A stretch of 64,000 nt of DNA, taken from NCBI RefSeq assembly GCF_018327705.1, contig NZ_BNEM01000002.1:1860001-1924000 (forward strand), read 5' to 3'. A model generated the notes under the pieces. It saw only the letters and a list, made by a program, of their open reading frames with translations, was not told the origin of the DNA and did not search any database. The DNA comes from Catellatospora sp. TT07R-123. GTDB taxonomy: Bacteria > Actinomycetota > Actinomycetes > Mycobacteriales > Micromonosporaceae. Shown here piece after piece: positions 41,520 to 48,684 of this stretch. A program made the position numbers and the translations under genes. Numbering within the stretch: position 1 is the first letter of the stretch; each line of letters starts with the position of its first letter.

Positions 41520-44273
<2,754 letters not shown>

Positions 44274-44382
44274 GGGGTTTCCCGAGTGACAGGGGCGGGA
44301 CGGGTCCCGCGACAGTGAACCCTCAGCCCGGCGGTGCCGACCAGCCGACCGAGGGACGTCATCCCCACCGAGCCCGGTTGGT

Positions 44383-44394
44383 GGGAGCGCTCCC
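44383..44394. promoter_or_regulatory. CebR-box-like operator
   Basis: GGGAGCGCTCCC inside GTGGGAGCGCTCCCGC. This matches the Streptomyces CebR box (TGGGAGCGCTCCCA) more closely than the sites of the first island. 110 bp upstream of GH3. Confidence 0.8.
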
Positions 44395-44479
44395 GCAATC
44401 GCCAGCTTACGTGACATCCACACCCATGAAAACCCCCGGCCCCACTCCCGCCCCGCCCACCTCCCCGCGGCCCCTTTCG

Positions 44480-44540
44480 CAAGTTGCCGGGCAATCGGGC
44501 GAATCATGGACCCGCATTCCCCCGATTGCCCGGCAACTTG
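44480..44540. repeat. Palindromic repeat family B, copy 2
   Basis: Perfect 20-bp arms CAAGTTGCCGGGCAATCGGG (44480-44499) / CCCGATTGCCCGGCAACTTG (44521-44540), 21-nt loop. It lies in the 438-bp divergent gap between GH3 and the SDR gene, where nothing else was seen apart from the operator and GC-rich spacer. Confidence 0.85.
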
Positions 44541-44711
44541 GCGGGGTTGTCCCGCGGCCCGGCGGGTTGTCCCTCGGCCCGGCGGGGGCCGGGGTTCGAC
44601 CGGAGCGGGCGAGTGGCGGACGGGGGGCGGGTGCGGGTGGGACGATGCCGGTGGGGACTGCCCAGTGGCTGAGCTGGGCGGATGCTGTGTGCGACGGGTG
44701 AGGGGATACCG

Positions 44712-45485
44712 ATGATGCTGTCCGGCAAGCGGGTGCTGGTGTTCGCCGCCGACGAGCGGCTGGGCGGGTCGGTCGCCCGCCATCTGGCCCGCAACGGCGC
44801 CGCGGTCTGGGTCAGCGGCCGCGACGAGGACGCGGTGCAGACCCTCGCCGAGAAGATCCGGGCCGACGGCGGCGAGGCCACCGCGGCGTCGGTCGATCCG
44901 GGCGACCGCGACGAGGTACGCGGTCACCTGGCCGAGGTCGCCGCGACCGGCCCGATCGACACGGTGGTCAACGTGCTCTGCCTGGCCGGGACCGCGGTCG
45001 GCGACGGGGTCCCGTACCACGATCTGGACCCGGCGGCGTTGACCGGCGCACTCGGGCACGTGGTCGGCGCCCAGTTCCTCACCGGCGCCGAGGCGGCGCG
45101 CGTGATGCTGCCCGCCCGGCGCGGCTCGATCATCACGGTCGCCACGACCGACGGCCGCAGCGGCCGCCCGCACACCGGCGCGCTGGGGGCGATCGCGGGC
45201 GCGCTGGAGGCGCTGACCCGCAGCATGGCCAGCGAATACGGCTCCAGCGGCATCCGCGTCAACCACGTGCGCACCAGCCACAGCAGCGGGCCGCGCATGT
45301 ACGCCGACAACGCGCTGGGCCGCGCGGTCACCGCCGACGAGGTCGCCGCGGCGATCACCTGGCTGGCCTGCGACGAGGCGGCCGGGGTGACCGGCCAGGT
45401 GCTGGAGGTCAGCGGCGGCGAGCACGGGACCACCGACAGCGTCGCCCGAGGAAGGGATCACCATGTCGAACTCGATCTACCATGA
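44712..45485 (+). CDS. SDR-fold protein lacking the catalytic Tyr-Lys pair
   Basis: 257 residues from ATG 44712 (GAGGGG upstream). Overall SDR order is visible (RVLVFAADERLGGSVARHL, GSIITVATTDGRSG, SEYGSSGIRVNHV, GQVLEVSGGE), but the place of YxxxK reads GALGAIA, and the Gly-rich cofactor loop is altered. So it may bind a ligand without being a normal dehydrogenase, like atypical SDRs. It overlaps the next gene by 23 bp, so the two are coupled. Confidence 0.8.
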   Translation: MMLSGKRVLVFAADERLGGSVARHLARNGAAVWVSGRDEDAVQTLAEKIRADGGEATAASVDPGDRDEVRGHLAEVAATGPIDTVVNVLCLAGTAVGDGVPYHDLDPAALTGALGHVVGAQFLTGAEAARVMLPARRGSIITVATTDGRSGRPHTGALGAIAGALEALTRSMASEYGSSGIRVNHVRTSHSSGPRMYADNALGRAVTADEVAAAITWLACDEAAGVTGQVLEVSGGEHGTTDSVARGRDHHVELDLP

Positions 45486-45861
45486 CGAATACGGCGCGAT
45501 CAGCCACGACGACGCCAAGCACGTCCTGGAGCTGACCTGGTCTCCGGCGACCGACCACATCACCGACGCCGACTTCCGGGCGCTGATGAGCCGGTTCGCG
45601 CAGACCGCCGAGCAGCTGCCCACCGAGTACGTGGTGGTCGACGCCCGCCAACTGCACCACCGGCCGGACGCCGGCTTCGACTCCTGGTGCGACACCAACC
45701 TGATCCCGGCCTGGAACCGGGCCGGTGTGACCAAAATGGCCTATCTGATGCCGCCCGCGTACGCGGCCGAGGCCGAACCGGCCCCCGAAGGGCCCGCCAC
45801 CTTCCCGACCTGCCATTTCGACTCGATGCAGTCGGTCCGCGACTGGTTCGCCACCGCCTGA
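45463..45861 (+). CDS. Hypothetical protein, STAS/SpoIIAA-like layout
   Basis: 132 residues; GGAAGGGA before ATG 45463. It alternates strands and helices, including YVVVDARQLHHRPDAGFDSW and AGVTKMAYLMPPAYAAEAE, which recalls SpoIIAA/STAS-like proteins, but this is a weak resemblance. No signal peptide. It is translated from within the 3' end of the atypical SDR gene, implying a joint function. Confidence 0.65.
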   Translation: MSNSIYHDEYGAISHDDAKHVLELTWSPATDHITDADFRALMSRFAQTAEQLPTEYVVVDARQLHHRPDAGFDSWCDTNLIPAWNRAGVTKMAYLMPPAYAAEAEPAPEGPATFPTCHFDSMQSVRDWFATA

Positions 45862-46105
45862 CCACACGGCACACATCGCACTGCACGCCACCCCACAGGG
45901 GTGAGGGCGGCGCGTCGTGGACGGTCGCACCTTAGCAGAGGCCGTAGCATATTAAAAGCGGATATTTTCCAGCGATCGGGACTTCCACAACCGCCTCCCG
46001 ACCCCTAAGAATTAGTACGAACCGGACGCAAGGTAATCAAAACCGCGTCGCGGTACACACCGGCGGCTTCCCCCCGCCGGTTCCTCCTATCCAGGGGTGG
46101 TGATC

Positions 46106-47509
46106 GTGGTGTCCGTGGACGCCCGCACAGAGGTCGACAATGGACAGCGGCAGCAGTCACTCGCGACAGCCGCAGCCCGCAACCTCGCGACGACGACCAA
46201 GTCCGCGCCGCAGATGCAGGAGATCTCCTCCCGGTGGCTGCTGCGCATGCTCCCGTGGACGCAGGTCAAGGGCGGTACGTACCGGGTCAACCGGCGGCTG
46301 AGCTACGCCGTCGGCGACGGCCGGCTCAGCTTCACGACCGCCGGCGGCCAGGTCCGCGTGGTGCCGCCGGAGCTGTGCGAGCTGCCGCTGCTGCGCGACT
46401 TCGACGACCCGATGGTCCTGGAGGCCCTGGCCGACCGGTTCCGCCAGCACGAGTTCTCCCCCGGCGACGTCATCGTCTCCAGCGGCGAGCCCGCCGACCA
46501 GGTGTTCCTCCTCGCCCACGGCAAGGTCAACCGGATCGGCACCGGCAAGTACGGCGACAAGATCGTGCTCGGGGTGCTGGCCGACGGCGAGTACTTCGGC
46601 GAGCAGTCGCTGACCCAGACCGGCGCCACCTGGGAGGCCACCGTCAAGGCGGTCACCTCCTGCATCGTGCTGTCGCTGCCGCGCAGCGCGTTCGAGGAGG
46701 TCGCGGCCCTGTCGGAGAGCCTGCGCGAGCACGTACGGCGCCGCCGGGACAGCCCGATCCCGGCGCAGAACAAGCACGGCGAGGCCGCGATCGACATCTC
46801 GGCCGGCCACTTCGGCGAGGCGCAGCTGCCCGGCACCTTCGTCGACTACGAGCTGACGCCGAGGGAGTACGAGCTCAGCGTCGCCCAGACCGTGCTCCAG
46901 GTGCACACCCGCGTCGCGGACCTCTACAACGAGCCGATGAACCAGATCGAGCAGCAGTTGCGGCTCACGATCGAGGCGCTCAAGGAGCGCCAGGAGTTCG
47001 AGCTGATCAACAACCGCGAGTTCGGCCTGCTCAGCAACGCCGACCTCAAGCAGCGCATCCACACCCGAACCGGCCCGCCCACGCCCGACGACCTCGACGA
47101 GCTGCTCAGCCGGCGGCGCAGCTCGCACGCCTTCCTCGCCCACCCGAAGGCCATCGCCGCGTTCGGCCGCGAGTGCACCCGCCGCGGCATCTACCCGCAG
47201 GGCGTCGAGCTGCACGGCTCGGGGGTGCCCGCCTGGCGCGGCGTGCCGCTGCTGCCCTGCAACAAGATCCCGGTCAGCGAGAACGGGACGACCTCGATCC
47301 TGGTCATGCGCCTGGGCGAGGCCGAGCAGGGCGTCATCGGCCTGCACCAGCCCGGCATCCCGGACGAGTACCAGCCGAGCCTGTCGGTGCGGTTCATGGG
47401 CATCAACGACAAGGCGATCATGTCGTACCTGGTCAGCGCCTACTACTCGGCGGCGATCCTGGTGCCCGACGCCCTGGGCGTGCTCGAGAACGTCGAGCTC
47501 GGCCACTGA
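46106..47509 (+). CDS. Family 2B encapsulin shell protein with cyclic-nucleotide-binding domain
   Basis: 467 residues. Four GTG codons lie between 46097 and 46109; AGGGGTGG favours 46106 or 46109. An N-terminal arm ([41 protein letters not shown]) is followed by a cNMP-binding domain (about 100-210: [31 protein letters not shown]). Then come HK97-type segments ([51 protein letters not shown]). It is often misannotated as a Crp-type regulator; no HTH is present. Family 2B shells enclose a partner enzyme, here most likely the polyprenyl synthase that follows by 29 bp. The 244-bp gap before it is AT-rich and probably holds the promoter. Confidence 0.85.
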
Positions 47510-47538
47510 CCGCCGCACCAGACGAAGAGGTGATCTCT

Positions 47539-48579
47539 GTGAGTACGGTCGACCTGCTGGCCCGCGGCCAGTCCGCCCGCGAGGTGCTCGCCTGGAGCCG
47601 AGCGATCGTCGACTCCGCGCTGCGTGAGGCGGTGGACCGCCTGCCGTCGTCGATGCGGCGCATCGCGGGATACCACTTCGGCTGGTACGACGCCGACGGC
47701 GCGCCCGCCGGCGCGGACGCGGGCAAGGCCATGCGGCCCGCGTTCACGCTGGCGGCCGCCGAGGCGGTCGGGGGTTCCGCCGCCGACGCCGTGCCCGCGG
47801 CGGTGGCGGTGGAGCTGGTGCACAACTTCTCCCTGCTGCACGACGACGTCATGGACGGCGACGTGACCCGCCGCCACCGGCCGACCGCGTGGAGCGTGTT
47901 CGGGCAGGCCTCGGCGATCCTGGCCGGGGACGCGCTGCTGTCGCTGGCGTACGACGTGCTGACCGGGTGCGGCCATCCGGCCGCACCGCAGGCCGGCCGG
48001 ATGCTGCACGCGGCGGTGCTGGAACTGATCGACGGGCAGGCCACCGATGTGGCGTTCGAGGAACGCGACGACGTGACCCTGGCCGAGTGCCGGATCATGG
48101 CCGAGGGCAAGACCGCGGCCCTGCTCGGCGGGGCGTGCGCGCTGGGCGGGCTGCTCGGCGGGGCCGACCCGGACCGGGTGGCGGGGCTGCGTGCCTTCGG
48201 CACCCGGCTCGGCCTGGCCTTCCAGTACGTCGACGACCTGCTCGGCATCTGGGGCGACCCGGCGGTCACCGGCAAACCGGTCCATTCGGACCTACACAGC
48301 CGCAAGAAGTCGCTGGTCGTGGTCACGGCGCTGACCTCGGGCACCCCGGCCGGGCGCGAACTGGACCGGCTCTACCGGCTCGACCGGGCGCTGAGCGAGG
48401 CGGAGGCGGTCCAGGCCGCCGACCTGATCGAGGCGGCGGGGGCGCGCACCGCCGGGCGCAGCGCGGCCAACGAGCTGCTGGCCGACGCGATGAGCGCCCT
48501 GCACACCGCGCGGCCCCAACCGCACGGCGCGGCCGCCCTGCACGCCCTGGCCCGGATGGCCACCCACCGCCAGCGCTGA
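47539..48579 (+). CDS. Polyprenyl (isoprenyl diphosphate) synthase, likely encapsulin cargo
   Basis: 346 residues from GTG 47539 (AGAGG 8 nt upstream). First Asp-rich motif HDDVMDGD (D102, D103, D106) and second motif YVDDLLGIWGD (D232, D233) with the KTAALLGGA and GRMLHAAVLELIDGQATD blocks. It should join isopentenyl diphosphate to an allylic diphosphate. The second motif is DDLLGIWGD rather than DDxxD, as in encapsulin-associated and some C10-C20 synthases. The N-terminal tail is short. It lies 29 bp after the encapsulin gene, in the same operon. Confidence 0.88.
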   Translation: MSTVDLLARGQSAREVLAWSRAIVDSALREAVDRLPSSMRRIAGYHFGWYDADGAPAGADAGKAMRPAFTLAAAEAVGGSAADAVPAAVAVELVHNFSLLHDDVMDGDVTRRHRPTAWSVFGQASAILAGDALLSLAYDVLTGCGHPAAPQAGRMLHAAVLELIDGQATDVAFEERDDVTLAECRIMAEGKTAALLGGACALGGLLGGADPDRVAGLRAFGTRLGLAFQYVDDLLGIWGDPAVTGKPVHSDLHSRKKSLVVVTALTSGTPAGRELDRLYRLDRALSEAEAVQAADLIEAAGARTAGRSAANELLADAMSALHTARPQPHGAAALHALARMATHRQR

Positions 48580-48610
48580 GCGGTCAACCTCGGCACAACC
48601 AGCACAAGTC

Positions 48611-48659
48611 GCCGGGCAATCGGGCGTATCAACGGTCAAGATACGCCCGATTGCCCGGC
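48611..48659. repeat. Palindromic repeat family B, copy 3
   Basis: Perfect 19-bp arms GCCGGGCAATCGGGCGTAT (48611-48629) / ATACGCCCGATTGCCCGGC (48641-48659), 11-nt loop, between the converging synthase and DUF1697 genes. Confidence 0.85.
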
Positions 48660-48684
48660 AATTCGGCTGGGGTGGGGGTGATCG

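Follow-up and report, generated by a model that had tools for sequence, protein, structure and literature searches.

A family 2B encapsulin shell gene with an adjacent isoprenyl diphosphate synthase gene, its predicted cargo, in Catellatospora sp. TT07R-123

The 2-methylisoborneol synthase encapsulin of Streptomyces griseus (EshA/SgEnc) is said to belong to the same shell family as the protein described here, and its cargo is reportedly a terpene cyclase with a long N-terminal loading domain. Other family 2B operons hold a polyprenyl transferase (PT). A 2021 survey counts 900 such operons, 888 of them in Actinobacteria; it also describes the enzymes as having 50-100 disordered residues at the N-terminus and no common targeting motif, which is a described trait of PT cargo and not a strict criterion (PMC8346489). 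In 2B shells the E-loop is the insertion site of a cNMP-type domain, and an earlier study is reported to have shown that this domain of a 2B shell binds no cyclic nucleotide, another ligand being possible (PMC12407261). Our literature search, which covered titles and abstract openings with most subscription journals beyond reach, turned up no title that deals with how an encapsulated prenyl synthase works biochemically.

We analyzed a stretch of 64,000 nucleotides from Catellatospora sp. TT07R-123 (the window), in which a family 2B encapsulin shell gene (46106..47509, 467 amino acids) is followed by a polyprenyl (isoprenyl) diphosphate synthase gene (47539..48579, 346 amino acids). Both genes, and all features within them given below, lie on the forward strand. 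The synthase frame runs from a GTG at 47539 to a stop at 48579, and 29 bp separate this GTG from the shell stop at 47509; the open reading frame list and the translations place both frames and the gap between them exactly where the original prediction had put them. In-frame GTG codons for the shell gene stand at 46097, 46100, 46106 and 46109, of which 46106 is one candidate start, while any longer start of the synthase would overlap the shell gene. An inverted repeat with a 20-bp stem and no T run lies 31 bp 3' of the synthase stop (48611..48659), and the fold of 48585-48680 reaches -62.8 kcal/mol (z -9.87). This repeat is possibly the operon end; it is absent from the four terminator-like sites found by the terminator scan (0.6 expected), and the promoter scan found none against 0.1 expected. 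Pairwise dN/dS, from four within-genus comparisons per gene, was 0.17-0.36 for the shell gene and 0.20-0.43 for the synthase gene, so that each appears to be under constraint in the genus.

We think that the two genes probably form an operon for a family 2B encapsulin with an icosahedral shell and for the enzyme packed inside it, an isoprenyl diphosphate synthase resembling IdsB. Shell and synthase would be transcribed together, with the transcript possibly ending at the inverted repeat, and the shell would self-assemble. The synthase would be loaded through a short N-terminal segment of approximately the first 20 residues, not through a long disordered domain, and would make a C15-C20 prenyl diphosphate inside, which would leave the shell for use by enzymes encoded elsewhere in the genome. 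The cNMP-type domain of the shell would sense neither cAMP nor cGMP, and could have another ligand or a structural role. At the level of sequence, the analysis establishes to which families the shell, with its inserted domain, and the enzyme, with its catalytic motifs, belong, as well as the conserved adjacency and the constraint on both genes.

The shell protein scored 789.2 bits against the curated model of family 2B encapsulin shells, NF041163 (cut-off 400), and with 387.2 bits also came barely over the 2A cut-off of 380. Its closest relatives in the PDB are the solved 2B shells 9bix (E 2e-211), 9bje and 9bhu, with an almost full-length alignment. Residues 219-466 (46760..47503) form the main HK97-fold shell domain (PF19307, 466.6 bits, cut-off 22.8). 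The alignment with SrpI (6x8m), a 2A shell, falls into two pieces, the first pairing shell residues 15-63, the N-arm or N-helix segment of the HK97 fold (46148..46294), with SrpI 6-54 and the second pairing shell residues 229-465 with SrpI 61-297. Between the two pieces the shell has 165 residues where SrpI has six, so the region that includes the cNMP-binding-type domain (residues 115-200, 46448..46705; PF00027, 69.4 bits, cut-off 27.5) is an insert relative to SrpI, at a site that PMC12407261 describes as the E-loop. Judged by these matches, the gene product is a family 2B encapsulin shell protein; the original prediction had named this family and had described an N-arm, HK97-type segments and a cNMP-binding domain, each of which was recovered. 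The genome-wide search for PF19307 gave one match, so there is a single shell gene and no second one in the operon. That the locus is a remnant of a two-component system that lost Enc1 found no support: in a quick tree the shell falls among PT systems with a single shell (12 rows, support 86). This tree used 103 rows out of 183, after lone shells had been randomly halved, and 28 of its 100 inner branches are open.

The synthase exceeded the cut-off of the curated model for family 2 encapsulin cargo polyprenyl transferases (NF041169, 469.8 bits, cut-off 450) and matched PF00348 with 198.2 bits. Similarity to the IdsB model NF045549 (347.5 bits) and to PDB 3nf2 (E 3.2e-80) was also found. Both Asp-rich motifs are present, the first at D102-D106 (DDVMD, 47842..47856) and the second at D232-G236 (DDLLG, 48232..48246), and D102, D103, D106, D232, D233 and G236 do not vary across 53 aligned sequences, all of them picked from shell loci. 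The AlphaFold2 model built on this alignment has a mean pLDDT of 93.2 and a pTM of 0.91, with a predicted helix at residues 13 to 32. A Phe stands five residues ahead of the first Asp motif, a position that bears on prenyl product length. Together with the IdsB similarity it suggests, though not decisively, that the product is probably a C15-C20 prenyl diphosphate. Possible users of such a product are two terpene-synthase frames or the pathways of five other PF00348 genes in the genome. The genome-wide terpene-synthase search, which covered the PF19086 family, gave three matches in these two frames (755 amino acids with two domains, and 343 amino acids), approximately 410-460 kb off on the same contig, and none inside the window, in agreement with the earlier remark that no terpene synthase lies nearby.

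Among the surrounding genes, a 132-residue protein encoded upstream of the shell gene (45463-45861, forward strand) has no Pfam or NCBIfam match. Its frame is present in all nine of the other genus stretches with the pair, and so is a DUF1697 frame on the opposite strand. A reverse-strand gene at 41520-45464, found in seven of these nine, encodes a 1314-residue member of glycosyl hydrolase family 3 that also has fibronectin III and cellulose-binding (CBM2) domains.

The linkage of shell and synthase was followed in a survey of relatives. Sixty-three of the 150 genomes scanned from the family hold a shell over the cut-off; 79 over-cut-off stretches from these genomes (two or three with partial shells) were combined with the window and with 80 named loci, the best out of at least 585; the named loci were those most closely related to the window shell and not a random draw. 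Once duplicates and loci lacking a scored shell had been taken out, 150 of the resulting 160 loci were left. A shell gene with a PT gene alone (Enc-PT) was the commonest arrangement (44 of 150), followed by shell alone (23), Enc-Enc-PT (16) and Enc-Enc (11), the rest being loci with terpene cyclases, for which two open frames from the genome studied here served as queries, or mixed. The PT gene stands directly 3' of the shell gene in 92 of the 95 loci that hold one. Of the 11 genomes sampled from the genus group (very probably Catellatospora), 10 have the gene pair, and the remaining one (G129) is without a full shell. A lone second 2B shell gene occurs in the same genus group (L067, G016:C23:300000-315000), in a stretch with no PT or cyclase. 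Across the 150 genomes, the NF041169 cut-off was exceeded in 30, 29 of which have a full shell, compared with 63 of 150 overall; the hypergeometric probability of this co-occurrence, 2e-12, makes the link look stronger than it is, because the genomes are related and because the NF041169 cut-off may itself presuppose the association, which makes the test partly circular. The NF041169 score, the adjacency and the co-occurrence agree with the original prediction in making the synthase the predicted encapsulated cargo.

The strongest rival is that the shell assembles around a true cargo encoded elsewhere, while the synthase is merely co-transcribed and stays free in the cytosol. Free paralogues of the same enzyme family are common (39 were examined), and the window synthase has no long loading domain of the kind described in PMC8346489. 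Furthermore, a synthase can persist without a shell: in the exceptional genome G066 (locus L222, G066:C77:60500-67000) an open synthase frame of the shell-associated type stands beside a 194-residue shell remnant whose match to the shell model is confined to positions at its two ends, the first 85 and the last 62, which is either a natural case of enzyme without shell or an assembly fault. However, the synthase gene almost always adjoins the shell gene (92 of 95), and 15 other open frames scanned between 35183 and 57305 include no Pfam family linked to isoprenoid metabolism or to the other known 2B cargo types, cysteine desulfurase, terpene cyclase and xylulose kinase. We therefore regard a cytosolic synthase as improbable.

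In the AlphaFold2 model of the synthase the only segment of at least three residues with pLDDT below 50 is the predicted disordered tail at residues 1-9 (47539..47565), and a disordered N-terminal domain of 50-100 residues is absent. The following residues 10-21 (GQSAREVLAWSR, 47566..47601) hold a short motif that we regard as a candidate loading signal because of its enrichment in shell-associated synthases. The pattern [RQH][STPEVAI][AVG]..[VITL][LI], sought in residues 10-21, was found in 51 of 90 shell-associated synthases and in none of 39 free paralogues, counts that are to be read with the pattern defined post hoc, after the sequences had been viewed, and with related sequences counted many times. 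It occurred in 34 of 41 synthases from single-shell loci without a cyclase, in 10 of 17 from two-shell loci and in 7 of 32 from loci with a cyclase, and was missing from 39 of the 90; one free paralogue, L239, comes near it with another spacing. The 90 were drawn from the 95 shell-associated synthases, leaving out L145 for its low score, L111 for masked bases, and L121, L149 and L173 because inserts broke the alignment, and include L071 and L106, where synthase and shell are on opposite strands; the 39 free paralogues were hand-picked from the listed NF041169 matches.

The length of the N-terminus differs as well. Twenty residues precede R21 in the window synthase, and the median before the aligned position was 20 for the 41 single-shell synthases without a cyclase, 22 for the 17 from two-shell loci and 18 for the 32 with a cyclase, compared with 12 for the 36 of 39 free paralogues with a start call; starts were taken by the best ribosome-binding match, a rough rule, and several free paralogues have alternative starts. 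Some synthases, mostly of Streptomyces, have 25-77 residues before the residue aligned with position 16. Seven synthases from operons with a single shell and a terpene cyclase (group g12: L088, L090, L091, L093, L095, L099 and L102) start about as near the first helix as free paralogues do, and in these operons the terpene cyclase may be the real cargo. A quick synthase tree of 62 shell-associated and 37 free rows, computed without the N-terminal columns, has at least five changes between the shell-associated and free labels. The window synthase falls within a shell-associated clade of nine genus members (support 98), and the Streptomyces synthases fall in another part of the tree, near free ones (support 87-90). 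The short N-terminal segment is the one new lead, a weakly supported candidate for the loading signal. A bolder proposal, which we hold to be rather doubtful, is that a short helical signal of the form Arg/Gln/His-x-Ala-x-x-Val/Ile/Leu-Leu, absent in free paralogues, replaces the long disordered loading domain and was gained or kept in at least two enzyme lineages, the Catellatospora type and the Streptomyces type, and that the shell domain with its conserved Trp binds a ligand other than a cyclic nucleotide, possibly an isoprenoid.

The original prediction also held that the contents of the nanocompartment may respond to a cyclic nucleotide, which would mean an enzyme that the inserted domain switches on binding cAMP or cGMP. 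The PF00027 score is over the cut-off, the Gly-Glu of the phosphate-binding cassette is retained (G165 and E166), and 11 of 197 shells match a loose canonical Arg-cassette pattern. However, the cassette Arg itself is absent from the window shell: in the alignments Trp176 (46631..46633) stands at the Arg of protein-kinase G and of another chain with nucleotide-binding domains. The same position is Trp in 189 of the 197 shells (survey shells of 430-530 residues, window shell included), Phe in four, Tyr in two, Thr in one and a gap in one. Because of this Trp, and because PMC12407261 reports no binding of cyclic nucleotides by the domain of a 2B shell, a response of the window shell to a cyclic nucleotide is unlikely, and the switch by cAMP or cGMP, a part of the original prediction that found no support, is very improbable. 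That the shell gene encodes a Crp/Fnr-type DNA-binding regulator, a frequent annotation of such proteins suggested by the PDB names of its relatives and by the PF00027 match, is refuted at the sequence level by the SrpI alignment and by the Pfam and NF041163 results, with no HTH family in the Pfam scan, as originally predicted, and with PF19307 and NF041163 covering the rest of the protein, and we give it hardly any credence.

Taken together, the operon is a real, well-conserved and ordinary member of the PT family 2B systems, approximately 900 of which are counted in PMC8346489. Its value lies in its simplicity as a test case: a single shell gene and a single putative cargo are conserved across the genus, a possible loading signal is narrowed to approximately 20 residues, and the evidence argues against the cyclic-nucleotide idea suggested by the domain name. 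The pair is suited to asking what purpose a shelled prenyl synthase serves and which ligand the inserted domain might have.

Compared with the systems described so far, the putative cargo is a prenyl synthase, unlike the terpene cyclase that EshA/SgEnc is said to enclose. The window synthase has a long similarity to the IdsB-type geranylgeranyl diphosphate synthases (NF045549) and to PDB 3nf2, but it lies below the IdsB cut-off of 475 and beside a shell gene. With the two-component 2B encapsulin Sl-Enc1/Sl-Enc2 of Streptomyces lydicus (PMC12407261), the window shell shares the family, a near full-length alignment and the cNMP-type insert; 9bix is taken to be Sl-Enc2 and 9bje Sl-Enc1, because the motif-2 strings given there for Sl-Enc2 and Sl-Enc1 stand in these two chains. 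That system has two shell genes, whereas the genome studied here has one, which groups with single-shell PT systems. The PT operons of PMC8346489 are the same kind of gene pair, and the genus is likewise actinobacterial; the enzymes described there have a disordered N-terminal domain of 50-100 residues, whereas the window synthase has nine low-confidence residues.
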